Source: Paracyclopina nana (taxonomy: Eukaryota; Arthropoda; Copepoda; Cyclopoida; Cyclopettidae). From it: a DNA stretch of 64,000 bases. Location: NCBI GenBank assembly GCA_019096065.1, contig JAGUCH010000001.1, forward strand, positions 124,001-188,000. The letters run 5' to 3'. Position 1 is the first letter of the stretch, and each line of letters begins with the position of its first letter. Shown here one piece after another: positions 12,510-60,600 of this stretch. Position numbers and translations under genes: made by a program. A model generated the notes under the pieces. The model made no database searches. It was not told where the DNA came from and saw only the letters and a list, made by a program, of their open reading frames with translations.

Positions 12510-13160
12510 ATGTGTCCCTCGAGACTTGATGACCAAATTAGATAGTAGAAAGCCACAAAATATTTCAGGGAGTGGAGCAAAGCAATCCGATTGTCCTTGA
12601 AACTTTTGTTATCAATAACGTTCTGAAAAAGTAAGCGTACTTGAAAGCGAATAACAAATGAATTGGAATATCTCCAATCCTTGTTCGCTCTTTGGGTATG
12701 CTAAAGATTGTAGGAGTTGGACAAGTCAGACTTGGCTGCTTTCCGGATAACTTTGCGTCACTCATGTATATAACAAGTATGGTTGGCCATCATTGGGTAT
12801 GTTGTATATTATTAACCAATTTGGCGTATTTAATTTTCATCTGAAGTAACAAAAAGTGTCCCGCGAGACCTGGTGACCAAATTAGATACTAGAAAGCCAC
12901 AAAATATTTCAGGGAGTGGAGCAAAGCAATCCAATCGTCCTTGAAACTTTTGTTATAAATAACGTTTTGAAAAAGTAAGCGTACTTGAAAGCGAATTACA
13001 AATGAATTGGAATTTCTCCAATCCTTGTTCGCTCTCTGGGTATGCTAAAGATTATAGGAGTTGGACAAGTCAGACTTGGCTGCTTTCCGGATAACTTTGC
13101 TTCACTCATGTACATAACAAGTATGGTTGGCTATCATTGGGTATGTTGTACATTATTAAC
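12510..13160. repeat. Two direct copies of a ~300-bp repeat
   Basis: About 305 bp at 12510-12815 recur at 12857-13160 (offset about 347) with few differences. Both carry GGGAGTGGAGCAAAGCAATC and GTTGGACAAGTCAGACTTGG. The copies lie in the candidate receptor intron. A related copy in the opposite orientation follows the receptor stop codon. Confidence 0.8.
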
Positions 13161-13564
13161 CGGTTTTGCGACTCACACTTAACCTCGAGCCATTTTCAAC
13201 AGCTGTACATAACTATACACTACTATGAGGTCTGTGCATATATAGGCAAATGTTCCTTTTTATATAGCACAAAAGCTATATATTGTAACTGTTTGTGTGC
13301 CTCAAACAATAGTTTCAGCACTGCTCTCAGGCTTTTTAGTTGACCTCCAACAAAACATCAATATTGTATTGCTGAAACTTTTGTCTGTTCTTTGATTTAT
13401 TTAGAGCCACTCAGATATACACATAAAGTTGAGAATGTCAGGGCTTTTCCCATCAGCATTGTTCATTTTTCATTTCTCAAAACTGTGTGTGAGTGTATAT
13501 AGCTGAGTGGTTCCTCTTAACCAGTCCACTGAACCGAGCTGTTCTTTTTAGGGCTTCGAGAGAG

Positions 13565-13954: not shown

Positions 13955-14100
13955 TGCGAACAGAGGTTATCCGGATTGCAGCCAAGTCTGACTTGTCTAA
14001 CTCAGAAGATCTTTGCTTTACCTGGAGTGCGAACAAGGATTGGAAGAATTACTATTTATTTCAATGAACGCTTGCTTTAAACGTTGTTCAACAACTCAAT
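13955..14100. repeat. Inverted, diverged copy of the 12510-13160 repeat
   Basis: The reverse complement of about 13955-14100 matches the two upstream direct copies. Shared words include CAATCCTTGTTCGC, GACAAGTCAGACTTGGCTGC and CCGGATAAC. It begins about 25 nt after the receptor stop codon, so it probably lies in the 3' UTR. Confidence 0.65.
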
Positions 14101-15825: not shown

Positions 15826-18800
15826 CTAAAAAGGTTGAAAATGCCTAAAATCACTTGGCTTGACTGGTCCGAAAGAAAAATTGTACTTGGACAATTCCTT
15901 GGCCCAGATAGAGCAACATCTGAATCAGTTGTAAAATTTGTGAACTTGAATAGGCTACAGGTTGCTGAGTCTTGCTCTGAGCTCAATTTCAATGTGAACA
16001 GTTCACATTGCTCTTCAGACAAGCACTTGTCCCAACATTTCAGCACTTGAGTTGGTGAAAAGGACTTGAATTGGGCAATAGGTTCTGCCTCATACTCTAT
16101 GGTCTTGAGGCAAACTCCTGATATGTGCAAAAGGTCTTAAGGCTTTAAATTGACATAAGGAATGACACACACAAACCTGTGGGACATGGGTTGCAAAAGT
16201 CATAGCTTATGTTTGAGCCCTGGCACATGCTTCCATTGAAAGAAGGAGCAGGATTGGTGCAAAATCTGACCCTGGTTGCAACACAAGACTCTGAACAATT
16301 TCCATCCATAGGGCTCAAAGTCACTCCAACCTCCACTAACTGAAAAATTTATAGATCCCAGTGCTAGAAAACTTCTTGTTTGGGCCAATAGACATTAGCA
16401 TCATAACAAAGACATCCCATCTACAGACATTTTTAAAGAAACACTTGGGAGTTGAACTCAAAATCGAGTTTCATTTTTAAGTATCAAGCCAGTATTTTTA
16501 GGGCGAGTAATTGTCTTAGATTGTTAATTTTATTTTGCTTAAGCTTAGCAATTTGATTTAAGTATCATTTGATTATTATAGATTTTCAATAACTCTTATT
16601 TTGTGTCATGAATGAATTATTTAAAAAGTGGGTCTTCACTTCGAACTATTACTCGAGTTGCAAAAAGACAGACATTCAGTTATTTACTAGAGCAGTGTCA
16701 GCTGAAAATCCTATGTGTTGCCCTTAAAGGCCGCTAGGATCGCCCTTCACCAATGTTATTGTTCTGATGCTAATGAGAATTACCTTTGGGACAAGTGTCA
16801 AAAGACACATTCAAGGTTTTCCCATGCTTAGGACAATCCTTGCCTCCATACTTTGGTTCCGGATTGTTACAGTACCTAACTTTGAAGCGCTTCCAAGATC
16901 TTGAACTAGAATCATAAGCGCAATTGTCCAAGTTTGCAACATGCCAATTGGACCATCCTCCATCAACTGAAAGAGTCTTAGTCAAAGTCAAGACTAGAAA
17001 AAGCATAGGTTATAAGACTTTACTTGGTAACACTCCCATGTTCAGCGCACAAAAATGCTCAAATTGACATAGATATCAAATAAAAAAACACAAAAAGTCT
17101 GAGCAGGGCACATAAAATCACAATTATTCTTTCCCAACCACCACCCATCACCACCCAAAATGATTTTGGATTTGGTCTTTTTTTCTGATCACCACCCATC
17201 ACCACCCAAACTGATTTTGGATTTGGTCTTTTTTTCTGATCACCACCCATCACCACCCAAATATGAATTTCGTTTTGCCTCTTTTTTCCCAATCACCACC
17301 CATCACCACCCAAACTGATTTTGTATTTGGTCTTTTTTTTCTAATCACCACCCATCACCACCCAAATATGATTTTGGATTTGGTCTTTTTTTCAGATCAC
17401 CACCCAAATTTGAATTTCGTTTTGCCTCTTTTTTCCCAATCACCACCCATCACCACCCAAACTGATTTTGTATTTGGTCTTTTTTTTCTAATCACCACCC
17501 ATCACCACCCAAATATGATTTTGGATTTGGTCTTTTTTTCAGATCACCACCCAAATTTGAATTTCGTTTTGCCTCTTTTTTCCCAATCACCACCCATCAC
17601 CACCCAAACTGATTTTGGATTTGGTCTTTTTTTCTGATCACCACCCATCACCACCCAAAATGATTTTGGATTTGGTCTTTTTTTTCTGATCACCACCCAT
17701 CACCACCCAAACTGATTTTGGATTTGGTCTTTTTTTTCTGATCACCACCCATCACCACCCAAATTTGAATTTTGTTTTGCCTCTTTTTTCCCAATCACCA
17801 CCCATCACCACCCAAATTTGAATTTCGTTTTGCCTCTTTTTTCCCAATCACCACCCATCACCACCCAAACTGATTTTGGATTTGGTCTTTTTTTCTGATC
17901 ACCACCCATCACCACCCAAACTGATTTTGGATTTGGTCTTTTTTTTCTGATCACCACCCATCACCATCCAAATTTGAATTTCGTTTTGCCTCTTTTTTCC
18001 CAATCACCACCCATCACCACCCAAACTAATTTTGGATTTGGTCTTTTTTTCTGATCACCACCCATCACCACCCAAAATGATTTTGGATTTGGTCTTTTTT
18101 TTCTGATCACCACCCATCACCACCCAAACTGATTTTGGATTTGGTCTTTTTTTCTGATCACCACCCATCACCACCCAAATATGATTTTGGATTAGGTCTT
18201 TTTTTTCTGATCACCACCCATCACCACCCAAATTTGAATTTCATTTTGCCTCTTTTTTCCCAATCACCACCCATCACCACCCAAAATATGACTCAAAATA
18301 TGAGATTTTTGACTCATTTTGAGTTTGAAAGTTTGCAAAAGTAAAGCATTTCGCGATGCGCAAAATTTGGCTCTCGCATAGTCAAAAATGAGTCAAAGTT
18401 TGACTTTGCTTCACATTTAGGGTCCAGATGCCTCAAATTATCAGCCACTACTGACATTTCGACTCAAAATTGACTAGTCCAGAATTTTGCATTTTCTCAA
18501 TAGTTTATAAGTAGCGTTAAGGGATGCGTAAGTTTTTATTTCTCTCATAGTCAAAAATAAGTCAAAGCTTGACTTTGCCTCACATTTAGGGTCCAGATGC
18601 CTCAAATTATCAGCCACTACTGACATTTTGACTCAAAATTGACTAGTCCAGAATTTTGCATTTTCTTAGTAGTTTATTAGCAGCATTACGCGATGCGCAA
18701 GTTTTGGCTCTCGCATAGTCAAAAATAAGTCAAAGCTTGACTTTGCCTCACATGTAGGGTCCAGATGCCTCAAATTATCAGCCACTACTGACATTTTGAC

Positions 18801-21800
18801 TCAAAATTGACTAGTCCAGAATTTTGCATTTTCTTAGTAGTTTATTAGCAGCATTACGCGATGCGCAAGTTTTGGCTCTCGCATAGTCAAAAATGAGTCA
18901 AAGCTTGACTTTGCCTCACATTTAGGGTCCAGATGCCTCAAATTATCAGCCACTACTGACATTTTGACTCAAAATTGACTAGTCCAGAATTTTGCATTTT
19001 CTTAGTAGTTTATTAGCAGCATTACGCGATGCGCAAGTTTTGGCTCTCGCATAGTTAAAGCTTGACTTTGCCTCACATGTAGGGTCCAGATGCCTCAAAT
19101 TATCAGCCACTACTGACATTTTGACTCAAAATTGACTAGTCCAGAATTTTGCATTTTCTTAGTAGTTTATTAGCAGCATTACGCGATGCGCAAGTTTTGG
19201 CTCTCGCATAGTCAAAAATAAGTCAAAGCTTGACTTTGCCTCACATGTAGGTTCCAGATGCCTCAAATTATCAGCCACTACTGACATTTCGACTCAAAAT
19301 TGACTAGTCCAGAATTTTGCATTTTCTTAGTAGTTTATTAGCAGCATTACGCGATGCGCAAGTTTTGGCTCTCGCATAGTCAAAAATGAGTCAAAGCTTG
19401 ACTTTGCCTCACATTTAGGGTCCAGATGCCTCAAATTATCAGCCACTACTGACATTTTGACTCAAAATTGACTAGTCCAGAATTTTGCATTTTCTTAGTA
19501 GTTTATTAGCAGCATTACGCGATGCGCAAGTTTTGGCTCTCGCATAGTCAAAAATGAGTCAAAGCTTGACTTTGCCTCACATTTAGGGTCCAGATGCCTC
19601 AAATTATCAGCCACTACTGACATTTTGACTCAAAATTGACTAGTCCAGAATTTTGCATTTTCTTAGTAGCTTATTAGCAGCATTACGCGATGCGCAAGTT
19701 TTGGCTCTCGCATAGTCAAAAATAAGTCAAAGCTTGACTTTGCCTCACATGTAGGGTCCAGATGCCTCAAATTATCAGCCACTACTGACATTTTGACTCA
19801 AAATTGACTAGTCCAGAATTTTGCATTTTCTTAGTAGTTTATTAGCAGCATTACGCGATGCGCAAGTTTTGGCTCTCGCATAGTCAAAAATAAGTCAAAG
19901 CTTGACTTTGCCTCACATTTAGGGTCCAGATGCCTCAAATTATCAGCCACTACTGACATTTTGACTCAAAATTGACTAGTCCAGAATTTTGCATTTTCTT
20001 AGTAGTTTATTAGCAGCATTACGCGATGCGCAAGTTTTGGCTCTCGCATAGTCAAAAATGAGTCAAAGCTTGACTTTGCCTCACATTTAGGGTCCAGATG
20101 CCTCAAATTATCAGCCACTACTGACATTTTGACTCAAAATTGACTAGTCCAGAATTTTGCATTTTCTTAGTAGTTTATTAGCAGCATTACGCGATGCGCA
20201 AGTTTTGGCTCTCGCATAGTCAAAAATGAGTCAAAGCTTGACTTTGCCTCACATTTAGGGTCCAGATGCCTCAAATTATCAGCCACTACTGACATTTTGA
20301 CTCAAAATTGACTAGTCCAGAATTTTGCATTTTCTTAGTAGTTTATTAGCAGCATTACGCGATGCGCAAGTTTTGGCTCTCGCATAGTTAAAGCTTGACT
20401 TTGCCTCACATGTAGGGTCCAGATGCCTCAAATTATCAGCCACTACTGACATTTTGACTCAAAATTGACTAGTCCAGAATTTTGCATTTTCTTAGTAGTT
20501 TATTAGCAGCATTACGCGATGCGCAAGTTTTGGCTCTCGCATAGTCAAAAATAAGTCAAAGCTTGACTTTGCCTCACATGTAGGGTCCAGATGCCTCAAA
20601 TTATCAGCCACTACTGACATTTTGACTCAAAATTGACTAGTCCAGAATTTTGCATTTTCTTAGTAGTTTATTAGCAGCATTACGCGATGCGCAAGTTTTG
20701 GCTCTCGCATAGTTAAAGCTTGACTTTGCCTCACATGTAGGGTCCAGATGCCTCAAATTATCAGCCACTACTGACATTTTGACTCAAAATTGACTAGTCC
20801 AGAATTTTGCATTTTCTTAGTAGTTTATTAGCAGCATTACGCGATGCGCAAGTTTTGGCTCTCGCATAGTTAAAGCTTGACTTTGCCTCACATGTAGGGT
20901 CCAGATGCCTCAAATTATCAGCCACTACTGACATTTTGACTCAAAATTGACTAGTCCAGAATTTTGCATTTTCTTAGTAGTTTATTAGCAGCATTACGCG
21001 ATGCGCAAGTTTTGGCTCTCGCATAGTCAAAAATAAGTCAAAGCTTGACTTTGCCTCACATGTAGGGTCCAGATGCCTCAAATTATCAGCCACTACTGAC
21101 ATTTTGACTCAAAATTGACTAGTCCAGAATTTTGCATTTTCTTAGTAGTTTATTAGCAGCATTACGCGATGCGCAAGTTTTGGCTCTCGCATAGTCAAAA
21201 ATGAGTCAAAGCTTGACTTTGCCTCACATTTAGGGTCCAGATGCCTCAAATTATCAGCCACTACTGACATTTTGACTCAAAATTGACTAGTCCAGAATTT
21301 TGCATTTTCTTAGTAGTTTATTAGCAGCATTACGCGATGCGCAAGTTTTGGCTCTCGCATAGTTAAAGCTTGACTTTGCCTCACATGTAGGGTCCAGATG
21401 CCTCAAATTATCAGCCACTACTGACATTTTGACTCAAAATTGACTAGTCCAGAATTTTGCATTTTCTTAGTAGTTTATTAGCAGCATTACGCGATGCGCA
21501 AGTTTTGGCTCTCGCATAGTCAAAAATAAGTCAAAGCTTGACTTTGCCTCACATGTAGGTTCCAGATGCCTCAAATTATCAGCCACTACTGACATTTTGA
21601 CTCAAAATTGACTAGTCCAGAATTTTGCATTTTCTTAGTAGTTTATTAGCAGCATTACGCGATGCGCAAGTTTTGGCTCTCGCATAGTCAAAAATGAGTC
21701 AAAGCTTGACTTTGCCTCACATTTAGGGTCCAGATGCCTCAAATTATCAGCCACTACTGACATTTTGACTCAAAATTGACTAGTCCAGAATTTTGCATTT

Positions 21801-24800
21801 TCTTAGTAGTTTATTAGCAGCATTACGCGATGCGCAAGTTTTGGCTCTCGCATAGTCAAAAATGAGTCAAAGCTTGACTTTGCCTCACATTTAGGGTCCA
21901 GATGCCTCAAATTATCAGCCACTACTGACATTTTGACTCAAAATTGACTAGTCCAGAATTTTGCATTTTCTTAGTAGCTTATTAGCAGCATTACGCGATG
22001 CGCAAGTTTTGGCTCTCGCATAGTCAAAAATAAGTCAAAGCTTGACTTTGCCTCACATGTAGGGTCCAGATGCCTCAAATTATCAGCCACTACTGACATT
22101 TTGACTCAAAATTGACTATTTTCTTAGTAGTTTATTAGCAGCATTACGCGATGCGCAAGTTTTGGCTCTCGCATAGTCAAAAATGAGTCAAAGCTTGACT
22201 TTGCCTCACATTTAGGGTCCAGATGCCTCAAATTATCAGCCACTACTGACATTTTGACTCAAAATTGACTAGTCCAGAATTTTGCATTTTCTTAGTAGCT
22301 TATTAGCAGCATTACGCGATGCGCAAGTTTTGGCTCTCGCATAGTCAAAAATAAGTCAAAGCTTGACTTTGCCTCACATGTAGGGTCCAGATGCCTCAAA
22401 TTATCAGCCACTACTGACATTTTGACTCAAAATTGACTATTTTCTTAGTAGTTTATTAGCAGCATTACGCGATGCGCAAGTTTTGGCTCTCGCATAGTCA
22501 AAAATGAGTCAAAGCTTGACTTTGCCTCACATTTAGGGTCCAGATGCCTCAAATTATCAGCCACTACTGACATTTTGACTCAAAATTGACTAGTCCAGAA
22601 TTTTGCATTTTCTTAGTAGTTTATTAGCAGCATTACGCGATGCGCAAGTTTTGGCTCTTGCATAGTCAAAAATAAGTCAAAGCTTGACTTTGCCTCACAT
22701 TTAGGGTCCAGATGCCTCAAATTATCAGCCACTACTGACATTTTGACTCAAAATTGACTAGTCCAGAATTTTGCATTTTCTCAATAGTTTATTAGTAGCG
22801 TTACGGGATGCGTAAGTTTTTATTTCTCTCATAGTCAAAAATAAGTCAAAGCTTGACTTTGCCTCACATTTAGGGTCCAGATGCCTCAAATTATCAGCCA
22901 CTACTGACATTTTGACTCAAAATTGACTAGTCCAGAATTTTGCATTTTCTTAGTAGTTTATTAGCAGCATTACGCGATGCGCAAGTTTTGGCTCTTGCAT
23001 AGTCAAAAATAAGTCAAAGCTTGACTTTGCCTCACATTTAGGGTCCAAATGCCTCAAATTATCAGCCACTACTGACATTTTGACTCAAAATTGACTAGTC
23101 CAGAATTTTGCATTTTCTCAATAGTTTATTAGTAGCGTTACGGGATGCGTAAGTTTTTATTTCTCTCATAGTCAAAAATAAGTCAAAGCTTGACTTTGCC
23201 TCACATTTAGGGTCCAGATGCCTCAAATTATCAGCCACTACTGACATTTTGACTCAAAATTGACTAGTCCAGAATTTTGCATTTTCTTAGTAGTTTATTA
23301 GCAGCGTTACGCGATGCGCAAGTTTTGGCTCTCGCATAGTCAAAAATAAGTCAAAGCTTGACTTTGCCTCACATTTAGGGTCCAGATGCCTCAAATTATC
23401 AGCCACTACTGACATTTTGACTCAAAATTGACTAGTCCAGAATTTTGCATTTTCTCAATAGTTTATTACTAGCGTTACGGGATGCGTAAGTTTTTATTTC
23501 TCTCATAGTCAAAAATAAGTCAAAGCGTGACTTTGCCTCACATTTAGAGTCCAAATGCCTCAAATTATCATTTTGTCTCAAAATTGACAAGTCCAGAATT
23601 TTGCATTTTCTCAATAGTTTTTATTTCTAGCATAGTCAAAAATGAGTCAAAGCTTGACTTTGCCTCACATTTAGGGTCCAGATGCCTCAAATTATCAGCC
23701 ACTATTGACATTTTGACTCAAAATTGACCTTATCAAGAATTTCGTATTTTCTAAGTAGTTTATTAGCAGCATTACGCAATGCGCAAGTTATGGCTCTCGC
23801 ATAGTCAAAAATGAGTCAAAGCTTGACTTCGCCTCACATTTAGGGTCCAAATGCCTCAAATTATCAGCCATTATAGACATTTTGACTCAAAATTGACCTT
23901 ATCCATAATTTCGTATTTTCTTAGAAGTTTACTAGCAGCACTATGAGATAAATACATAGCATCTAGCGATGCGCAAGTTTTCACTCTTGCGAACTCAAAA
24001 TGAGTCAGAAGTTTCACTTCTCCTCAAGTTTTTAGTCAAGTTGACTCACACTATCAGCGGCAACCAACACTTTGACTCAAAATTGACTTTTGTCAAGAAA
24101 TTCAATTTTTTTCAGCAATTAATTGGTAGTATAATGTGATGCCCAAGTTTTAGCTCTTGCTAGCTCAAAATCAAAAAAAGGTTGACTTTGCCTCAAATTT
24201 TGAGTCAAGTTGACTCACACTAACAGCTGCAACTGACATTTTGACTTAAAATTCAAGAGTTCTTAAATAAAACTGACTTTGAGCTAGCAAGCTGTGCTCA
24301 TTCTGGTTATAGTTGTTAGGATCTTGGAAAGTCCAGGTCCATCAGTCTCCCAGTGCAAAATCTGACATAAACTAGAATATTTTTAGCAACAACTTTTCGG
24401 TCAAGGAGCAAAACTAGCGTAGCGTACATGATTAATATACTGTTCATCTACCATTCCTTAAAGAATGCATTGTGACAAATCCATGCATACAACTCTACGC
24501 AGCTAATTTATGTACTGAGAACTCTTTGGCGCAAAGGAATTTTGAGTTCCGATTCCTTAAGGAGTTTGTAGATGAAGAGAGCATATTTGCCTGAGCAAAA
24601 TTGTATTTTTGACAACGTCTTACAAAGTTTTGCATTTTTTCACCATGTTTTAACTAATTTTGAATTTGTCATAGTGCTAACTTTAGCATCGTCTGGGTGG
24701 TGATGGGTGGTGATTGGGAAAAAAGAGGTAAAATGAAATTCAAATTTGGGTGGTGATCAGAAAAAAAAGACCAAATCCAAAATCATATTTGGGTGGTGAT

Positions 24801-27800
24801 GGGTGGTGATCAGAAAAAAAGACCAAATCCAAAATCATATTTGGGTGGTGATTGGTGGTGATTGGGAAAAAAGAGGCAAAACGAAATTCATATTTGGGTG
24901 GTGATGGGTGGTGATCAGAAAAAAAGACCAAATCCAAAATCAGTTTGGGTGGTGATGGGTGGTGATCAGAAAAAAAGACCAAATCCAAAATCAAATTTGG
25001 GTGGTGATTGGTGGTGATTGGGAAAAAAGAGGCAAAAACGAAATTCATATTTGGGTGGTGATGGGTGGTGATCAGAAAAAAAAGACCAAATCCAAAATCA
25101 TATTTGGGTGGTGATGGGTGGTGATTGGGAAAAAAGAGGTAAAATGAAATTCAAATTTGGGTGGTGATGGGTGGTGATCAGAAAAAAAGACCAAATCCAA
25201 AATCAAATTTGGGTGGTGATTGGTGGTGATTGGGAAAAAAAAGACCAAATCCAAAATCATATTTGGGTGGTGATGGGTGGTGATCAGAAAAAAAGACCAA
25301 ATCCAAAATCAAATTTGGGTGGTGATTGGGAAAAAAGAGGCAAAACGAAATTCATATTTGGGTGGTGATGGGTGGTGATCAGAAAAAAAGACCAAATCCA
25401 AAATCAGTTTGGGTGGTGATGGGTGGTGATCAGAAAAAAAGACCAAATCCAAAATCAAATTTGGGTGGTGATTGGTGGTGATTGGGAAAAAAGAGGCAAA
25501 AACGAAATTCATATTTGGGTGGTGATGGGTGGTGATCAGAAAAAAAAGACCAAATCCAAAATCATATTTGGGTGGTGATGGGTGGTGATCAGAAAAAAAG
25601 ACCAAATCCAAAATCATATTTGGGTGGTGATTGGTGGTGATTGGGAAAAAAGAGGCAAAATGAAATTCATATTTGGGTGGTGATGGGTGGTGATCAGAAA
25701 AAAAGACCAAATCCAAAATCATATTTGGGTGGTGATTGGGAAAAAAGAGGCAAAATGAAATTCATATTTGGGTGGTGATGGGTGGTGATCAGAAAAAAAG
25801 ACCAAATCCAAAATCAGTTTGGGTGGTGATGGGTGGTGATCAGAAAAAAAGACCAAATCCAAAATCAAATTTGGGTGGTGATTGGTGGTGATTGGGAAAA
25901 AAGAGGCAAAAACGAAATTCATATTTGGGTGGTGATGGGTGGTGATCAGAAAAAAAAGACCAAATCCAAAATCATATTTGGGTGGTGATGGGTGGTGATC
26001 AGAAAAAAAGACCAAATCCAAAATCAAATTTGGGTGGTGATTGGGAAAAAAGAGGCAAAACGAAATTCATATTTGGGTGGTGATGGGTGGTGATCAGAAA
26101 AAAAAGACCAAATCCAAAATCAGTTTGGGTGGTGATGGGTGGTGATCAGAAAAAAAGACCAAATCCAAAATCAAATTTGGGTGGTGATTGGTGGTGATTG
26201 GGAAAAAAGAGGCAAAAACGAAATTCATATTTGGGTGGTGATGGGTGGTGATCAGAAAAAAAAGACCAAATCCAAAATCATATTTGGGTGGTGATGGGTG
26301 GTGATTGGGAAAAAAGAGGTAAAATGAAATTCAAATTTGGGTGGTGATGGGTGGTGATCAGAAAAAAAGACCAAATCCAAAATCAAATTTGGGTGGTGAT
26401 TGGTGGTGATTGGGAAAAAAAAGACCAAATCCAAAATCATATTTGGGTGGTGATGGGTGGTGATCAGAAAAAAAGACCAAATCCAAAATCAAATTTGGGT
26501 GGTGATTGGGAAAAAAGAGGCAAAACGAAATTCATATTTGGGTGGTGATGGGTGGTGATCAGAAAAAAAGACCAAATCCAAAATCAGTTTGGGTGGTGAT
26601 GGGTGGTGATCAGAAAAAAAGACCAAATCCAAAATCAAATTTGGGTGGTGATTGGTGGTGATTGGGAAAAAAGAGGCAAAAACGAAATTCATATTTGGGT
26701 GGTGATGGGTGGTGATCAGAAAAAAAAGACCAAATCCAAAATCATATTTGGGTGGTGATGGGTGGTGATCAGAAAAAAAGACCAAATCCAAAATCAAATT
26801 TGGGTGGTGATTGGGAAAAAAGAGGCAAAACGAAATTCATATTTGGGTGGTGATGGGTGGTGATCAGAAAAAAAAGACCAAATCCAAAATCATTTTGGGT
26901 GGTGATGGGTGGTGATTGGGAAAAAAGAGGTAAAATGAAATTCAAATTTGGGTGGTGATGGGTGGTGATCAGAAAAAAAAGACCAAATCCAAAATCATTT
27001 TGGGTGGTGATAGGTGGTGATCAGAAAAAAAGACCAAATCCAAAATCATTTTGGGTGGTGATGGGTGGTGATTGGGAAAAAAGAGGTAAAATGAAATTCA
27101 AATTTGGGTGGTGATGGGTGGTGATCAGAAAAAAAAGACCAAATCCAAAATCAGTTTGGGTGGTGATGGGTGGTGATTGGGAAAAAAGAGGCAAAACGAA
27201 ATTCAAATTTGGGTGGTGATTGGTGGAGATTGGGAAAAAAGAGGCAAAACAAAATTCAAATTTGGGTGGTGATGGGTGGAGATTGGGAAAAAAGAGGCAA
27301 AACAAAATTCAAATTTGGGTGGTGATGGGTGGTGATCAGAAAAAAAGACCAAATCCAAAATCAGTTTGGGTGGTGATGGGTGGTGATTGGGAAAAAAGAG
27401 GCAAAACGAAATTCAAATTTGGGTTGTGATCTGAAAAAAAGACCAAATCCAAAATCATTTTGGGTGGTGATAGGTGGTGATCAGAAAAAAAGACCAAATC
27501 CAAAATCATTTTGGGTGGTGATGGGTGGTGATTGGGAAAAAAGAGGTAAAATGAAATTCAAATTTGGGTGGTGATGGGTCGTGATCAGAAAAAAAAGACC
27601 AAATCCAAAATCAGTTTGGGTGGTGATGGGTGGTGATTGGGAAAAAAGAGGCAAAACGAAATTCAAATTTGGGTGGTGATTGGTGGAGATTGGGAAAAAA
27701 GAGGCAAAACAAAATTCAAATTTGGGTGGTGATGGGTGGAGATTGGGAAAAAAGAGGCAAAACAAAATTCAAATTTGGGTGGTGATGGGTGGTGATCAGA

Positions 27801-30380
27801 AAAAAAGACCAAATCCAAAATCAGTTTGGGTGGTGATGGGTGGTGATTGGGAAAAAAGAGGCAAAACGAAATTCAAATTTGGGTGGTGATCTGAAAAAAA
27901 GACCAAATCCAAAATCATATTTGGGTGGTGATGGGTGGTGATTAGAAAAAAAAGACCAAATACAAAATCAGTTTGGGTGGTGATGGGTGGTGATTGGGAA
28001 AAAAGAGGCAAAACGAAATTCATATTTGGGTGGTGATGGGTGGTGATCAGAAAAAAAGACCAAATCCAAAATCAGTTTGGGTGGTGATGGGTGGTGATCA
28101 GAAAAAAAGACCAAATCCAAAATCAAATTTGGGTGGTGATTGGTGGTGGTTGGGAAAGAAAAATTTTGATTGTATGTGCCCTGCTCAGACTTTTTGTGTT
28201 TTTTTATTTGATATCTATGTCAATTTGAGCATTTTTGTGCGCTGAACATGAGAGTGTTACCCTTTACTTTTATTGCAAGTCACATCTTTCAATGCATCTC
28301 CTTCGCAGTTTTTCCCTCCATACAAAGGTGGTGGATTGGTGCAAAATCTGTACACAGATTTGGACCAAGTGTTTGTATTGAAGGTACATTTAGAATACAA
28401 AGATGAGTCACTCCATGAACTCCAGCCTCCATCGACTAAAATTAAAAAAAAAATATCAATGAAATAAAGGTCAGACTGAAAGTTAAAGCTGAACTCACTT
28501 GGCTTGCAAACTGTGGAAGAGTTTTCCATGCCATACTCATCTTTTTGACAATAATCACCTCCATATCGAGGACTGGGATTGTTACATGATCTCCACATTG
28601 GCTTGGTGTACGCTTGATCATGATCGATTCCAAGCTCTTGCAATTCTTTGCGTATTGGTTCGCTTACATTTTGAGTAAGTGCACATAATGCATTTTCTGC
28701 CAGCGTCCAGTTGGACCATCCTCCAGGTCCTTTTATAATTCAATGGCTTTCAATTTGTTTAATTACGACTTTGAGCTACTTACTAGGTGTACATTGAATG
28801 TAAGTGGTATTAAGTCCTTCACAGTCAGCACCACCAAATTTTGGTTCGGTGCAAAATCTTTCAGTCTGTCTAATCCAAGATGACCCATTGTTAAAGCACT
28901 CTGAACCATCAATTCGCCCCCAATCGGTCCATTCACCATTGACTTTAATCAAATTACCAATAATTGGAATAGTGATCAAGAAATTTTGATTTATACTTGG
29001 TTTGCAAAGAGTGGAAGAGTTTTCCATGCCATACTCATCTTTTTGGCAATAATCACCTCCAAATCGAGGAGTGGGATTGTTACATGATCTCCACATTGGC
29101 TTGGTGTACGCTTGATCATGATCGATTCCAAGCTCTTCCAATTCTTTGCGGATTGGTTCGCTTACATTTTGAGTAAGTGCACATAATGCATTTTCTGCCA
29201 GCGTCCAGTTGGACCATCCTCCAGGTCCTTTTATAAATCAGCGGCTTTCAATTTGCTTAATTATAATTTAGAGCTACTTACTAGGTGTACATTGAATGTA
29301 AGTGGTATTAAGTCCTTCGCAGTCAGCACCACCAAATTTTGGTTCAGTGCAAAATCTTTCAATCTGTCTTATCCAAGATGACCCATTGTTAAAGCACTCT
29401 GAACCATCAACTCGCCCCCAATCGGTCCATTCACCATTGACTTTAATCAAATTACCAATAATTGGAATAGTGATCAAGAAATTTTGATTTATTGACTTTA
29501 CTTGGGGGACAAATGGTTTCTTCGAAGAAAGGCTCATTTGGATCACACTCCACACCTTGATTGTCATATGACCAAGGATTCTTGCAAACTCTTGATCTTG
29601 ATTTCACCCAATTATTATCATTAAGTTTGCAATCATTCCAACTTGACCAATCAGAATACACTCCCATGTCTTTTAAAAACAAAATATATGATTTTTTTTC
29701 CTTAAGAGTTTTTTAGAAAGCTTACATTGTTTGTAGGGATTGAAAGTACATTCTCTTTGGCAAATGTAGTCCAAAGATTTTGCACAATCCTCCATGCTTA
29801 TTTCTGAGTTTTTTATGAGTTTTCCACATTTTTGCCCAGCATTGTAATGCTCAATCAGTCCATCTAATGTTGTTAGATCATAGGTCTCATTTGAGCCAAG
29901 CCAGTGAATTGAGTCTCCATTGAAAAGGTCCAATCCAATCCAAGCTTCCTTTTTGTTTGAATTATCTCGAGAGTTTCTCGAGAAGTAGTACATAATCTCG
30001 ACAAGTTCTTGGCTGTTTCCAGCCTGAGCCAATCTTGCTTCAAATTGGCTGCATTTTGCTTGAGCCTCTGAAAAATTCTCACTCACTGCAAAGTATCTGT
30101 AATTGTACTTGAAGTCCTCAAAAACTTCAAACTGATTTTTAGCACATTCTAGAAAATTTGGACTTTAACTAGTGCCAACAAAGCAATAAGTAATGTATTT
30201 TACCTTCATAGTAGTCATCAGTGCAAAGGGTCCTATCACAATATCCCCATTTTGAATAGCCAATTTCACACCAAGATTTGTTATGAGCATAATCAAACCT
30301 ACAACTTCTCTTCTTACTTTCAGAATATTGACTTTTGTCAAACTCAAACTCAATACAGCCTTCCTTATGATCTGTCATGC
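15674..30380 (-). CDS. Mosaic extracellular protein gene: FN2-like, CTLD, TSP1-like repeats, PAN
   Basis: I assembled this locus from splice sites and phase. In transcript order the exons are 30380-30204, 30148-29726, 29669-29502, 29440-29282, 29227-28997, 28942-28784, 28729-28499, 28435-28268, 16976-16784, 16339-16177, 16117-15897 and 15825 to about 15674. Internal exons start and end in phase 1, the usual signature of shuffled extracellular modules. The encoded modules are disulfide-rich, so a secreted or cell-surface protein is expected, with a role in adhesion, matrix or recognition; that role is inferred from the families only. The start codon and signal peptide are not identified; they lie above 30380. 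Most introns are 54-71 nt, but one spans 28267-16977 because it holds an 11.2-kb element. The exon at 16177-16339 carries a frameshift, so the 3' part may be decayed. It could also be two neighbouring genes. Confidence 0.65.
15897..16117 (-). CDS. PAN/apple-domain exon
   Basis: The phase-1 exon, between CATATCAG and A|GTACAA, encodes about 73 residues with cysteines spaced as in PAN/apple domains: GVCLKTIE, KCWDKCLSEEQC, a beta-rich stretch, ATCSLFKF and PRNC. PAN domains bind proteins or carbohydrate. The flanking introns are 59 and 71 nt. Confidence 0.6.
16177..16339 (-). pseudogene. TSP1-like exon with a one-base frameshift
   Basis: From the phase-1 acceptor the expected frame reads SGGWSDFEPYG, but the rest of the domain (NCSESC, RVRFCTNPAP, MCQGSN, FCNPCP) is in the +1-shifted frame, which also matches the phase-1 donor CACAG|GTTTG. 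One surplus base near the TATGGATGGAAA stretch (about 16300) explains both halves. Left unspliced and unshifted, the exon meets a stop. Decay of the gene or a sequencing/assembly error are the two options. Confidence 0.6.
16340..16783. other. 444-nt intron of the mosaic gene
   Basis: This gap lies between the exon ending at 16784 (donor AAAG|GTAATT) and the acceptor at 16340-16341. It is AT-rich and holds no feature I can support. Confidence 0.4.
16784..16976 (-). CDS. TSP1-like exon directly 3' of the 11.2-kb insertion
   Basis: The 193-nt phase-1 exon begins after CTCTTTCAG and reads VDGGWSNW, FKVRYCNNPEPKYGGKDC and FDTCPKG: a WxxW start, then the CNNPxPxxGGxxC core of the TSP1 family. The small-residue and aromatic spacing differs from vertebrate modules. 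The element's end is only about 50 nt upstream of this exon's acceptor. Confidence 0.75.
17018..17025. repeat. 8-bp target-site duplication, left copy
   Basis: CTTTACTT abuts the left terminal inverted repeat and is repeated exactly at 28262-28269, next to the right end. An 8-bp duplication is typical of hAT, P and some other cut-and-paste superfamilies. Confidence 0.85.
17026..17112 (+). repeat. Left terminal inverted repeat, unique part
   Basis: Starts GGTAACACTCCCATGTTCAG and matches the reverse complement of 28175-28261 with only a few differences. No tandem subrepeats occur in this outer segment, which may hold the transposase-binding site. Confidence 0.85.
17113..18288 (+). repeat. Left minisatellite arm (pyrimidine-rich strand)
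   Basis: About 22 units of roughly 52 bp. Each unit has CACCACCCATCACCACCC followed by one of two spacer types: a TGATTTTGGATTTGGTC type or a GAATTTCGTTTTGCCTC type, each with a T-run. Open frames through it (HHHPN, DLVFF repeats) are by-products of the periodicity. Confidence 0.9.
18289..24250 (+). repeat. Satellite core, ~168-bp monomer
   Basis: About 36 head-to-tail monomers. Length classes are visible: 168 bp (most), 157 bp (an 11-bp deletion, reading GTTAAAGC) and 152 bp (a 16-bp deletion, reading TTGACTATTTTCTTAG). Central copies are nearly identical, and those beyond about 23500 are progressively diverged. Each monomer contains AAGCTTGACTTTGCCTCAC and TTTTGACTCAAAATTGAC. The period is near nucleosome repeat length. 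Confidence 0.9.
24251..24693. other. Unique AT-rich segment of the element
   Basis: Lies between the decayed edge of the satellite and the right arm. It contains no tandem structure and no coding frame I recognise, apart from a short inverted pair of ATTCCTTAA-like words. Confidence 0.5.
24694..28150 (-). repeat. Right minisatellite arm (purine-rich strand)
   Basis: Same ~52-bp units as the left arm in reverse orientation (GGGTGGTGATGGGTGGTGAT plus two spacer types), but about three times longer. Internal duplications are visible: frames at 25072-25260 and 26252-26440 are identical (offset 1180), as are 27021-27305 and 27481-27765 (offset 460). Confidence 0.9.
28151..28261 (-). repeat. Right terminal inverted repeat, unique part
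   Basis: Reverse-complement partner of the left end, with the shared words GCCCTGCTCAGACTTTTTGT and GTGCGCTGAACATG, ending GAGTGTTACC. Confidence 0.85.
28262..28269. repeat. 8-bp target-site duplication, right copy (overlaps a splice donor)
   Basis: CTTTACTT on the plus strand is AAGTAAAG on the gene strand. GTAAAG (28267-28262) is the 5' splice site of the upstream exon, and the last two exon bases also lie in the duplication. Confidence 0.8.
28268..28435 (-). CDS. TSP1-like exon directly 5' of the insertion
   Basis: A 168-nt phase 1-1 exon after TAATTTTAG. It encodes VDGGWSSWSD, YRFCTNPPPLYGGKNCEG and DVTCNK: a full TSP1-like module. Its donor (A|GTAAAG) is the element's target site. Confidence 0.75.
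28499..28729 (-). CDS. TSP1-like exon with long insert, copy B
   Basis: A 231-nt phase 1-1 exon encoding PGGWSNWTLAENALC, an inserted charged segment (ELQELGIDHDQAY), then WRSCNNPSPRYGGDYC. It is the 498-bp-offset duplicate of 28997-29227 with few changes. Confidence 0.75.
28784..28942 (-). CDS. TSP1-like exon, copy B
   Basis: A 159-nt phase 1-1 exon encoding VNGEWTDWGRIDGSEC, ERFCTEPKFGGADCEG and TYIQCTP. Duplicate of 29282-29440. The donor A|GTAAGT is strong. Confidence 0.75.
28997..29227 (-). CDS. TSP1-like exon with long insert, copy A
   Basis: A 231-nt phase 1-1 exon with the same layout as copy B: PGGWSNWT start, charged insert, CNNPTPRFGGDYC core. It ends CKP|A with donor GTATAA. Confidence 0.75.
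29282..29440 (-). CDS. TSP1-like exon, copy A
   Basis: A 159-nt phase 1-1 exon differing from copy B by two clear residues (GRVDG for GRIDG, RQIERF for RQTERF). Its 54-nt downstream intron is also shared with copy B. Confidence 0.75.
29502..29669 (-). CDS. First TSP1-like exon after the lectin domain
   Basis: A 168-nt phase 1-1 exon. It encodes MGVYSDWSSWNDC, SRVCKNPWSYDNQGVEC and ETICPP. The WSSW and CKNP landmarks identify a diverged TSP1-like module. Confidence 0.7.
29726..30148 (-). CDS. C-type lectin-like domain exon
   Basis: A 423-nt phase 1-1 exon after TTTTCTAG encodes about 141 residues with the CTLD landmarks: ECAKNQFE, YRYFAVSENFSEAQAKC (alpha-1 region), EAWIGLDLF (WIGL motif), HWLGSNE and EDCAKSLDYICQ at the end. 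No EPN/QPD-WND set is clear, so calcium-dependent sugar binding is doubtful. Such domains bind sugars or proteins outside cells. Confidence 0.8.
30204..30380 (-). CDS. FN2-like cysteine-rich exon
   Basis: A 177-nt phase 1-1 exon between TTTTTTAG and GAAG|GTAAAA. It encodes GCIEFEFDKSQYS, RSCRFDY, KSWCEIG and KWGYCD. The four cysteines with WC and WGYC endings resemble a fibronectin type II module. The match is short, so the family call is tentative. The upstream exon with the start codon was not found. Confidence 0.5.
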
Positions 30381-38879: not shown

Positions 38880-39300
38880 AATTTTAAGTTGATTTTAAAA
38901 AAGTTACTTTTTAAACTAGTTGCTTACAAAAAACAAGTTATTTATAAAAAACTAGTTATTTATAAAAAAACTAGTTATTTCTTTCAAATCTAGTTATTTC
39001 AAAAAAACTAGTTCATTAAAAAAACTAGTTATTTAAAAAAACCCAGTTATTTCAAAAAAACAAGTTATTTAAAAAAACTAGCTATTTAAAAAAACTAGTT
39101 ATTTCAAAAAAACTAGCTATTTAAAAAAAAACTAGTTATTTAAAAAAACTAGTTATTTCAAAAAAACTAGTTATTTCAAAAAAACTAGTTATTTAAAAAA
39201 AACTAGCAATTTTTTGAAAAGAACCGAGTTATTTATCTAAGAAAGTAGCGATTTTCAAAAAAATAACTAGTTATTTTTTTTAAAAAAACTAGGGTTGTTA
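38880..39300. repeat. ACTAGTTATTT minisatellite
   Basis: About 20 imperfect units of 17-20 bp built on AACTAGTTATTTAAAAA, very AT-rich. Scattered related words occur at 37850-38160. Confidence 0.8.
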
Positions 39301-52849: not shown

Positions 52850-54200
52850 CTGACTTAAACTGACATAAACTGACATAAATTGACTACAGCTGACTTTCAC
52901 TAGCTGCTTTTTTATTTAAAATATAACCTCAAATGGCTAAGGCTAACAAAATACTGACTTCACTTAAAATAGACAGATTGTGTCTGAAAAAAAGCTCTGT
53001 CGACATCAAATGACTATAGGTGTCACTACGAGACATCAGCTAATGTAACCTGACCACAGCTGATGTAACCTGACAACAGCTAATGTAACCTGACAACAGC
53101 TGACGTATCCTGAATACAGCTTGTGTGACCCGAAGATAATTTGAGCTACCTGACAACAGCTGACATAACCTGACAACAGCTGAAATAACCTTGCTGTAGC
53201 TGATATAACCCAACAACAGCTAAAGTAAACTGTAAACTGATATGTAACCTGACATCAGCTGACTCAAAGTGACTGCAGCTAACTTAACCTGACTACAGCT
53301 AACTTAACCTGACGACAGCTAACTTAACTTGACAAAAACTAAATACAACCGGACAACAGCTAACATAACCTGACTACAGCTAACTTAACTTGACAAAAAC
53401 TAAATACAACCTGACAACAGCTAACATAACCTGACAACAGCTGAAATAACCTTGCTGTAGCTGATGTAACCCGAGAACAGCTAACGTAAACTGTAAACTG
53501 ATATGTAACCTGACATCAGCTGACAAAAGCTGACATAACTTGACATAACTTGACTACAGCTGACTCAAAGTGACTGCAGCTAACTTAACCTGACTACAGC
53601 TAACTTAACCTGACTACAGCTAACTTAACTTGACACCAGCTAACTTAACCTCTCAACAGCTGACGTAACTTGACAAAAACTAAATACAACCTGACAACAG
53701 CTGAAGTCATCTGACGACAGCTGATGTAAGATAAAAACAGCTGGTTTAACCTTACATCTTTGACAACAGTTTACAAAACAGGACAACAGCTAACTTAGCC
53801 TGAATACAACTGATTTTAATCCTCACAATAAATCTTATTACAGGTAATGTTAATTGGTTGAGAGTGACATAAATTGAAAACAGCTTAAATAAAGTGACTA
53901 TACAATGAAATATACCACTTAAAGCTGACTCAACCAGAATACAGCTGATACATACAGATACATAATCTAGCAGCAGCTGAAATGAACTGATTTCAGCTGT
54001 AATAAATCGACCAAAAGGGACATTTTAAAATGATTAGAACTGACATTAGCTGACAACTGCTTAAATAAAGTGACTAGCTACAACAGGAATGCACTATTTC
54101 AATTTGAAAACAGAATACAGCTGACACATGCTCATTGCAAATAACAGCTGAAACAGCCAAGGTCAACTGAGCAGAACAGCTGAAATTGAATCAAACAGTA
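52850..54200 (-). repeat. AGCTG-rich array, opposite orientation
   Basis: Imperfect units of about 18-20 bp such as AACCTGACAACAGCTGA. Read on the minus strand they give TCAGCTGTTGTCAGG, resembling the 51880-52400 array. Longer duplicated blocks occur inside, for example around 53220-53260 and 53490-53520 (TAAACTGTAAACTGATATGT). Confidence 0.75.
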
Positions 54201-55419: not shown

Positions 55420-56540
55420 CCTACATTCAAAAAGCTTAGCTTAACTTAAAAGGGCTGCGCTAAGCTTCAAAGAGCTTTGCTTACACTAGCTTTACTTAAC
55501 TTCAAATGTCTTTACTTAACTTCAAAGAGCCTTGCTAAAATTCTAAGAGCCTTGCTAAAATTCTAAGAGCCTTGCTTAGCCTCAAAGTGCTTTGCTTAAC
55601 TCCAAACAGCCTTGCATAACTTCAAAGAGCTTTATTTAACTTCAAATGTCTTTGCTTAACTTCAAATGTCTTTGCTTAGCTTCAAATGTCTTTCCTTAAC
55701 TTCAAAGAGCCTTGCTTAGCCTCAAAGTGCATTGCTTAACTCCAAACAGTCATGCTTAACTCCAAACAGTCATGCTTAGCTTCAAAGAGCTTTGCTTAAA
55801 TTCAAAGAGCTTTACTTAACTTCAAAGAGCTTTGCTTAAATTCAAAGAGCCTTGCTTACATTAAACAAGCTTAGCTTAACTTGTAAGAGCTCCGCTAAGC
55901 TTCAAATGTCTTTGCTTAACTTCAAAGAGCCTTGCTAAACTTCTAAGAGCCTTGCTTAGCCTCAAAGTGCATTGCTTAACTCCAAACAGCAATGCTTAAC
56001 TTCAAAGAGCTTTGCTTAAATTCAAAGAGCTTTACTTAACTTTAAAGAGTTCTGCATAACTTCAAAGAGCTTTGCTTAAATTCAAAGAGCCTTGCTTACA
56101 TTAAACAAGCTTAGCTTAACTTGTAAGAGCTCCACTAAGCTTCATATGTCTTTGCTTAACTTCAAAGAGCCTTGCTAAACTTCTAAGAGCATTGCTTAGC
56201 CTCAAAGTGCTTTGCGTAACTCCAAATAGCATTGCTTAACTTCAAAGAGCTTAACTTAACTTCAAATGTCTTTGCTTAACTTCAAATGCCTTTGCTTAAA
56301 TTCAAAGAGCCTTGCTTACATTAAAAAAGCTTAACTTAACTTTTAAGAGCTCCTCTAAACTTCTAAGAGCTTTGCTTAGACTCAAATAGCCAAGCTTTAC
56401 TTAACATCAAATAGATTTGCTTAGCCTCAAAGTGCTTTGCTTAGCTTCTAGGAGTTATGCTAAACTATAACATCAGTTGAGCTTGCTTAAAATCAAAGAG
56501 CATTGCCTAATTTCAAAGAGCTTAAAAATGGGCTACTAAG
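55420..56540. repeat. 20-bp minisatellite with 240-bp higher-order period
   Basis: More than 50 units of AACTTCAAAGAGCTTTGCTT and close variants. A distinctive stretch (TTACATTAAACAAGCTTAGC and what follows) recurs with an exact 240-bp offset, ending positions 55860 and 56100 for its lead-in, equal to 12 units. Confidence 0.85.
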
Positions 56541-57646: not shown

Positions 57647-60600
57647 ATGGCTTCCACCATGGACAAGAAGCTGATTGTCAAACTCCTTGTGCAAAGGTAA
57701 AGATCAAATTACACCAAACTTGGCAATTCTCTTGCAATAATAAATTCACCATGAGTTGTGTCATTCAAAAGTCCAGTTCAAAATGGGAGGCTGCTTTGGC
57801 AAATTGAGATTATTCTTAGCAAGGTAGTATATGGATATTTTAGAAAAAGATGGCCTTAGCTGAAAATAGAAATGTATAAGTGTAGAATGTGAAAAACACC
57901 TGAGAAGGTTCAGTGCTGGACTAATCTCAAATCGTGGCAGTTGCAATAGCAGCTTTTGTGTTGAAAAATGGCTGCTGCTGACAAGGCTGACTTTTCTTCT
58001 GATTGCAGCAGTAGGCGTGGCAGCTTCACGCCCACTACCACACCCTCGACACTGGGTGCCAACCACAGGGTCACTGACCTCAGGCTCGTACTGGTTAATT
58101 TTGTCGTGGCTGGACTCGAAATCGCCTCTTCAGTGGCTTTCACCTTCATTCCCCCACTTCTGCTCAAGTCTGGATACAGCGAAACCCAAATGACCATCAT
58201 ATTTGGCGTCGGTGAGTCAAACCACCTAAAAGCATTTAGCCCAACCAGAAGTTTTTGCAAGTTATCTGAAAGTTATTGTAACCAGTACGCACTTCTTCAT
58301 TTCACCCAGGTTGAGGTTATGTCGTAATGTCACATTAACTGCCTTACCAGGTAAGTAATGAAATCTAAGGTGACTTGTAAAATTGGTGTTTTCGATTTTA
58401 CTTGTGCGGCAAGGGAGTTAATGTTACATAATGACATACGCTCAATGTTGAGGAAACGTTAAAGTTTCACTGAGGGTTATTAGGGCGTATAAATGCTCAG
58501 AAATTCTGGTTGGCTTGAATTATTGTAAACTTAAGGGATTTGTTTTTTCAGCTCCTCTGATAGCGCTGTTTACGGTGCCAGTCATCGGTCACTGGTCAGA
58601 CATTTGTGACTCCAAGTGGGGCAGGCGAAGGCCATTCATTTTTGGCCTTTCGCTCTTCCTCATCCTATCTCTGGTGCTTTTGTGCTTGGGCCAGACCATG
58701 GTGGCCACACCGCAACACCAATACAGTGGGCATGTATAATGCATACCATCAAGTTTAGACCTGCTTAAAACAGTTCTCTTTTCAGGATGTACGTTGTGGC
58801 CTTTGCAGTCATTCTGCTGGATTACGCCTCTCAGGCAGCCATCAACCCTTGTGAATCGTAAGCAGCCTTACCCAACCAGAAATGAAACCCTCAGTGAAAC
58901 TTTTATGTTTCCTCAACATCGAGTGTATGTCATTATGTAAAATTAACCTCCTTGCCGCACAAGTAAAATTGAAAACACCAATTTTACAAGTCACCTTAGA
59001 TTTCATTACTTACCTGGTAAGGCAGTTAATGTGACATAACGACATAACCTCAACCTGGGTGAAATGTAGGAGTGTGTACTGGCTACAATAACTGTTCCTG
59101 GTTTGGTATTGAACTTGTATTGAACAATTGCCAATAGACTATTCTATTTGCAGGCTGATGGCTGACATGCTGCAGTCCGCTGCCAATGCCAACACTGGCT
59201 TCATGATCTACAGTGCCATGCTCAGCTTGGGCTCTTGCGTGGGCTACTTGCTATCAGCTGTGGACTGGCAGATCTTCAACAACTCTTCCTCCACGTACTG
59301 CAGCTCAGAGCAAATGGCCATTCTCATTGTGCTGGTCCTCTTCACCATCACCCTCCTGGTCACCATGATCTTTGCCAGGGAGAGGCCACTGCGGAGAGCA
59401 CCAGTGTTGTCTTCCAGCCTCAACGGTGGTGGTGACCCTTTGACCCTAGAGTCTGGCTCTGCCATCAAGGAGGCCACAAGTGAGCAGCAGCCTTTGGCAG
59501 CCTTGAAGGCTGCAGCTCTGGTCATTCGGGCGCCTCCAATAACCTATGTGACAATCAAAAAGGCTATAGTGAACTCCTTCCGGATCTCCTTCCTACTAGC
59601 TTGCATCATCAAGGTATAAGATCTGTTCATGTTGAATACATAGTATTCCCAAGTTTTCTGAAAGCTATTGTAAAGTGATGACGCTCCTTTTTTTCACCCA
59701 TGTTGAGTCAATGTCGTTATGTAACATAAACTGCCTTGCCACCTATGTAAAGCAATCAAGGGTGACATGTAGAATAGGTGGTTTTGACATTACAAATGTG
59801 GCAAGGCAGTTAATGCTACACAATGGCATAAACTCGATGTTGATGAAACTAATGGTTATTTTGGCGTACAAGTGATCAGACTTTCCGGTTGTGAATTAGT
59901 TTGAATGTTGCAGGCTGTGACCAACTGCTGTCTTGCCATCCTGAAGCCCATTCGAACAGTGTACGAGGCCCCACTAGTGCTGCAAAGGCTCTTCTGGGCA
60001 GATTTGCTCTGCTGGATGGCCATCATGGCCCATTCCATGTTCTGCACAGACTATGTGGCCACTGTGGTCTATGGGGGCAGTGCTTATGCTGAGCGAGGCT
60101 CGATTGATGACATCAAGTTTGACGAGGGGGTGCGAATGGGGTCTCTAGGCTTGCTCTTGCACAGCACCACAGGTACAACAAGCCTTAATCAAGCTCCAGT
60201 TTAGCTTAGCAGTTGAACTGAGCCAGAGGAGGGACAAACTTTTTATCTAGATGGTGCTTTACGAGCAAGTATTTTTGGAGAAACTGTCATGTTCGAAACT
60301 TGGTCAAAAGTAGCAATTTGATTAGATGATCAGCGGAGCTAGGCTAGAAAAATTTGGTTTCAACAGCGAAAAGCTTGAAGATTTGCAAGCGTCGCATATG
60401 GTTTCACAGCTTGAAAGGGTGCCATTATGTATCTAGGTTACGTCATATTAATGAAGTTTTTATTGCAAGCGCTCCCAAAGCCAGACGATATCCGATTTTC
60501 GATCTTCTATGAAGCAAAGCCATTTCGAATGTACTTGCTCAAGTTGTCAGGCTAGATGGCGCTGCAAATCTAACGACTTTACGCCTTTGACTTATATCAT

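Follow-up and report, generated by a model that had tools for sequence, protein, structure and literature searches.

An 11-kb foldback-type insert with minisatellite arms and a satellite core at a splice donor of an animal gene

How does an ~11-kb, non-coding, transposon-like block come to lie against the edge of an exon, and was the satellite at its centre carried there by a transposon or born within one? The locus, at 17026-28261 of the window (the whole 64,000-nt stretch of DNA analysed here), places two tandem arrays of different unit inside one bounded, apparently mobile unit, and an old-to-young gradient can still be read at one edge of its core. If other insertions share this core with varying copy numbers, the question of whether satellites are born in or carried by transposons would become testable in one genome. 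Our preferred reading, to which we give a probability of roughly 0.78, is that of a non-autonomous foldback DNA transposon, mobilised in trans, that inserted at a 5' splice site, with arrays that lengthened and a core that grew inside it. All evidence comes from one copy at one locus, and the array sizes depend on the assembly. The features are as follows.

17018 to 17025, unstranded: left copy of the target-site duplication (TSD), CTTTACTT, 8 bp; AAGTAAAG on the gene strand; spans the 5' splice site
17026 to 17137, plus strand: left outer terminal inverted repeat (TIR), 112 bp, beginning GGTAACACTC; 96.4% identity with the inverted right end
17139 to 18285, plus strand: left arm, ~22 units of a 52-bp minisatellite; GGTC-type and GCCTC-type bodies with CACCACCCA boxes between them
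18286 to 18344, unstranded: left spacer, arm to core; resemblance to the monomer weak at most
18345 to 23940, plus strand: satellite core of 168-bp monomers, homogeneous in the centre; a second type alternates near the right edge (337-bp dimers)
23941 to 24260, plus strand: degenerate edge monomers, one at 71% of consensus and one partial
24261 to 24693, unstranded: non-tandem spacer of ~430 bp, core to right arm; no Pfam match above cut-off in the scanned frames
24648 to 24691, minus strand: putative inverted monomer remnant, 44 nt, adjoining the right arm; a hint only
24694 to 28157, minus strand: right arm, ~66 units of the left-arm minisatellite in opposite orientation
28150 to 28261, minus strand: right outer TIR, ending GAGTGTTACC
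28262 to 28269, unstranded: right copy of the TSD, CTTTACTT, 8 bp

Borders of the insert and the gene that holds it

The borders of the insert are exact. A first-pass annotation of this DNA had described terminal inverted repeats and an exact 8-bp target duplication, and both are present: the element ends in GGTAACAC termini, its 112-bp inverted ends differ by four substitutions, and identical 8-mers flank them. The inverted match of 108 out of 112 bp by itself excludes chance. Identical 8-mers are shared by 208 out of 2,000,000 random pairs of positions in this window, or about 1 in 10,000, and by three out of 52,748 pairs at the spacing of the insert, the real TSD pair included; because they are this rare, a duplication at exactly the insert borders is not expected by chance. 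As a word, CTTTACTT is not rare in this DNA: of its eight occurrences in the window, two are the flanking copies, five fall within the array at 55.5-56.4 kb and one lies at 29496. The last, in the same gene and apparently at another donor, makes it also a natural sequence of the host gene, which counts against our preferred reading.

The intron that holds the insert belongs to a minus-strand gene whose cysteine-rich repeats carry WSxW motifs and are, in our view, TSP1-like; Pfam gave no match for either of the two ORFs tested. An ORF with a C-type lectin domain probably belongs to the same gene, judging from adjacency. When the flanks are joined without the insert, they read as an exon, a 57-nt phase-1 GT-AG intron (GTAAAG...TTTCAG) and an exon, and with the exons joined a single frame out of three stays open throughout (...VTCNK-IDGGWSNW...). 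By eye, a neighbouring repeat junction shares this phase and reads similarly. Because removal of the insert restores this intron, the flanks were contiguous before the insertion. The gene carrying the insert also contains a 498-bp tandem duplication (95.8%) of exon-bearing sequence at 28497-29492.

On the gene strand, the TSD (AA|GTAAAG) takes in the last two bases of the exon and the first six of the intron, which gives each copy a full donor. As the duplication copies the 5' splice site, the insertion could be neutral for splicing, and the duplicated donor suggests how an 11-kb insert at the edge of an exon could be tolerated. It would be tempting to see here an introner-like element, one that makes the intron in which it lies: the TSD holds the splice donor, the start of the TIR (GGTAAC) is donor-like by eye, and some introner families, in the excerpts of PMC9860276, take a splice site from the TSD. 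However, the intron pre-existed the insertion, given that a complete 57-nt GT-AG intron remains without the element and shares its phase with the neighbouring repeat junction, and the element is far longer than the medians of 30-654 nt given for introner families in the same excerpts (PMC9860276). Membership among introners is rejected on the ground that the element did not create the intron, and we find this origin hardly credible.

At the single copy seen, the insert has the terminal inverted repeats and the exact 8-bp TSD of a Class II TIR transposon, together with the long inverted repeats holding tandem repeats that are typical of the foldback type. The absence of a visible transposase, also noted in the first pass, holds in the frames examined. 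The region 18286-23940 is overlapped by just two stop-to-stop frames that reach 60 aa, both repeat-derived by eye; in the arms, the longer frames simply translate the minisatellite. For 23940-24700, seven out of the 16 overlapping frames with 30 aa or more were scanned with Pfam, and none scored above the cut-off (one match, E 0.13); a search of the window with Rfam gave nothing at gathering scores. If it is mobile, the element is non-autonomous.

A second full copy of the ends was not found within the window, where just short matches at chance level occur. Six other inverted-repeat pairs in the window have at best a flanking duplication of 4 bp (three pairs) or none (three pairs), and none has the ends of this element at its BLAST borders. 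Exact matching of a 29-mer from the end against viral_contigs and genome_contigs, and of a 35-mer from the monomer against viral_contigs, gave no matches, which says little, since the DNA in these collections is viral and prokaryotic.

Arms, satellite core and the order of their growth

The arms bear out the earlier description of one 52-bp minisatellite in opposed orientations. Tandem Repeats Finder (TRF) reports 22.4 copies of 52 bp at 17139-18285 and, in the opposite orientation, 66.2 copies of 53 bp at 24747-28148, and the sign of GC skew is opposite between the arms. Both are built from the same pair of body types, with CACCACCCA boxes in between, and eight of the 12 distinct left-arm bodies, two rare ones among them, are found exactly in the right arm. 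The arms are unequal in length (1.15 kb on the left vs 3.4 kb on the right) and collinear over their outermost ~445 bp, with whole-unit changes further inward. Two blocks of the right arm are duplicated, one of 716 bp with one mismatch at an offset of 1180 and another of 485 bp with two mismatches, 460 bp away. The outer 145 bp hold seven arm-to-arm differences vs two in the next 309 bp, both at the far end (Fisher P 0.006, for a split of 145/309 bp that was chosen post hoc); the fewer differences in the inner 309 bp may reflect recent exchange between the arms, within the terms of that post hoc split. The outer TIR has no similarity to the arm units, its scores being reached by 1726 and 1048 of 2000 shuffles on the two strands.

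The core had been put at ~36 copies, and we count 35 anchored monomers in 36 intervals, degenerate edge intervals included, with one boundary placed by hand to split a long interval. TRF gives 31.6 copies of 168 bp at 18345-23570, with related rows up to 23940. Pairwise identity, computed with indels ignored, averages 97.7% among monomers 1-30, 98.9% among the 27 first-type monomers and 92.5% between the first and second types. Against the consensus, first-type monomers stand at 97.6-100%, the three of the second type, which lie near the right edge, at 92.9-94.0% and the left-edge monomer at 91.7%. Approaching the right arm, the final intervals fall through 93.7, 94.0, 85.6 and 71.3% to a partial copy; because second-type monomers inside the array are also at 92.9-94.0%, the case for decay proper comes down to the final two or three monomers. 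A 1247-bp block of the core is duplicated with two mismatches at an offset of 2308.

Between the degenerate edge and the right arm lies a 44-nt stretch that hints, by sequence resemblance, at a degenerate monomer in inverted orientation. Its score of 20 was reached by two of 2000 shuffles and by none of 710 chunk-strands from the rest of the window, and the stretch is also listed at 73% complementarity. The signal is the strongest of eight comparisons, apart from the control of degenerate against clean monomers, and weakens under other scoring (23 of 2000 shuffles with a clean consensus; of 300 shuffles, two under loose scoring and 50 under strict). The left spacer resembles the monomer weakly (8 of 300 shuffles twice on one strand; 56 of 2000 in a second comparison). 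Set against each other, the inner left and inner right regions gave no signal, their score being reached by 993 of 2000 shuffles; this argues against a simple inward extension of the TIRs. The satellite has no significant similarity to the arms (1230 and 1241 of 2000 shuffles) or to the outer TIR (115, 271, 207 and 212 of 300; 1403 of 2000).

Long near-identical blocks such as those of 716 and 1247 bp are where assemblers err, and an assembly might have wrongly joined or duplicated the inverted arms or the arrays. The flanks, however, are unique and differ from each other, the TSD is exact and the restored intron leaves an open frame; a misjoin does not make such features, and we consider an error of this kind very improbable as the source of the insert. 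This argument covers the joins; the array sizes could still be wrong, as large near-identical repeats can be mis-sized in assembly.

Under our preferred reading of a trans-mobilised foldback transposon, a transposase encoded elsewhere would recognise the GGTAACACTC ends, make 8-bp staggered cuts and move the element in trans. Its point of entry, as the flanks record, was the donor site of a short intron in a minus-strand animal gene. The arrays of arms and core would have lengthened, before or after the insertion, by unequal exchange or by block duplication, the duplicated blocks themselves being visible. The homogeneous centre, the decay at the right edge and the possible inverted remnant hint at growth of the satellite within the element, most likely from a few old monomers that were already there, a direction that we infer from the edge-to-centre decay.

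Two other histories of the core have to be weighed. In one, a short foldback element or MITE, made of the outer TIRs, a few arm units and one or two monomers, inserted and the arrays grew in place, so that the satellite was never cargo. In favour of it, the arms are collinear over their outer ~445 bp and yet of unequal length and differently ordered further in, the block duplications in the right arm and core are nearly identical and thus recent-looking, and the first-type monomers (98.9%) resemble one another more closely than do the two TIRs (96.4%). Note that divergence between the TIRs can predate the insertion and homogenisation keeps monomers alike; therefore, the apparent ages of monomers and TIRs are not clocks. 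We give this history a chance somewhat short of even, and because it is a sub-case of the best explanation, the confidences in the two overlap. What remains of the first-pass annotation is a single inserted foldback unit, upheld by the TIRs, the TSD, the arms and the rejoined intron; the satellite as a transposed cargo is just one of two histories, as the data equally allow a smaller element to have inserted and its arrays to have grown in place afterwards.

In the other history, the element picked up part of a satellite array that already existed in the genome, its degenerate edge included, and carries it as passenger DNA. Satellite arrays often have degenerate edges, and such an edge would come along with the captured chunk; the monomer, moreover, lacks significant similarity to the outer TIR and to the arm units, and the direct left-to-right comparison of the inner regions is without signal. 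Against capture, the weak, putative remnant of an inverted monomer that adjoins the right arm suggests that the sequence belonged to the inner repeats of the element, and we hold capture to be unlikely.

Within growth inside the element, we offer tentatively, and as rather unlikely, a two-stage nursery. An inner inverted repeat would have given rise, on one side only, to the unrelated-looking 168-bp satellite, which would spread with the element; the arms would expand independently, with their outer parts kept alike by exchange between them.

Known elements of similar build

Foldback elements or MITEs that give birth to or spread satellites have been published, among them Tetris (PMC4079207), miDNA4 (PMC12628747, PMC9659126) and Merlin (PMC8101967), and reviews list many cases of transposons turning into satellites, miDNA4 included (PMC12628747, PMC9659126); we compare them here as excerpts of these articles describe them. 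Given these precedents (Tetris, miDNA4 and the tandem-repeat Merlins), the insert is not a new kind of element. What looks new is the nesting of two different tandem arrays in one foldback element, with the satellite in the middle, and the element looks unusually large. In the open-licence literature, the exact layout is not described in the titles and abstract starts among the matches listed, a search on MITEs and core repeats gave no match, and a text search for GGTAACACT gave nothing on transposons in the titles and abstract starts of its matches.

The closest known system, as far as the excerpts describe it, is Tetris, a foldback element of Drosophila virilis (Dias et al. 2014, PMC4079207). 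Like the present element, it is non-autonomous, with composite long TIRs that join an outer unique part to an inner part of tandem repeats, TSDs of 8-10 bp, a middle without apparent coding capacity and repeats that expanded into satellite arrays. In Tetris the satellite is the arm repeat itself (~220 bp), whereas here the 52-bp arm repeat and the 168-bp satellite are without significant similarity and the satellite lies in the middle. A 37-bp stretch is common to the outer TIR and the repeat of Tetris (PMC4079207); in contrast, shuffle comparisons found no link to the outer TIR here. miDNA4, a Xenopus MITE with an internal satellite (Scalvenzi and Pollet 2014, via PMC12628747 and PMC9659126), is likewise an inverted-repeat element with an inner satellite, present as one monomer or as a variable array. 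It differs in being a Tc1/mariner MITE according to the reviews, whose excerpts do not mention foldback arms.

As to superfamily, Merlin and then Mutator are most likely, as a lead only. Merlin elements have 5'-GG termini, TSDs of 8-9 bp, TIRs of 24-462 bp and, in several families, internal tandem repeats (PMC8101967). The GG start (GGTAACACTC) and the 8-bp TSD agree. The TIR length fits this range only if it is taken as the outer 112 bp or as the collinear stretch of ~445 bp; the full arms (1.15 and 3.4 kb) exceed it. In contrast to Merlin, the present element is without a visible transposase, and the excerpts of PMC8101967 do not describe kilobase minisatellite arms. The Merlin transposase domain, DDE_Tnp_IS1595, was not seen inside the element in the Pfam-scanned frames. 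Mutator has TSDs of 8-10 bp, with which 8 bp is compatible, and a MULE transposase; no transposase was seen in the scanned frames. The hAT superfamily has 8-bp TSDs and CA/TA-type terminal bases. It is rejected: the TSD fits, but the terminal GG does not.

Galileo, of another superfamily (P), also has long TIRs with internal tandem repeats, and these carry extra transposase-binding sites (PMC3688188, in excerpt). By analogy, arm units might be gained because they help the transposase, a logic that is analogy only here, because the arm units lack similarity to the outer TIR. Tm1, a Mutator/foldback element of root-knot nematodes, differs in its 9-bp TSD, ~14-bp motif and asymmetric 7-bp terminal motifs, as excerpted from PMC3169594.

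Surroundings in the window

The window is animal DNA, with a TENT5-type nucleotidyltransferase (Pfam NTP_transf_7; PDB matches TENT5C, 5A and 5B), a DENN-domain protein, a rhodopsin-type receptor and the C-type lectin domain. Inverted pairs also lie at 12.6-14.1 kb and 47.3-49.0 kb, and another (58268-58478 / 58886-59097, 93%), near possible transporter gene frames, was found to have no target duplication. Among those frames, 60591-61079 matches MFS_1 below the Pfam cut-off. Upstream of a receptor exon, a 344-bp unit forms two tandem copies (94%) at 12512-13161, and an inverted piece related to it lies at 13966-14061. Arrays of ~20-bp units occupy 53032-53722 and 55488-56523, the latter also with a 240-bp period, and an AT-rich array of ~18/35-bp units (AAACTAGTTATTT) lies at 38913-39276.
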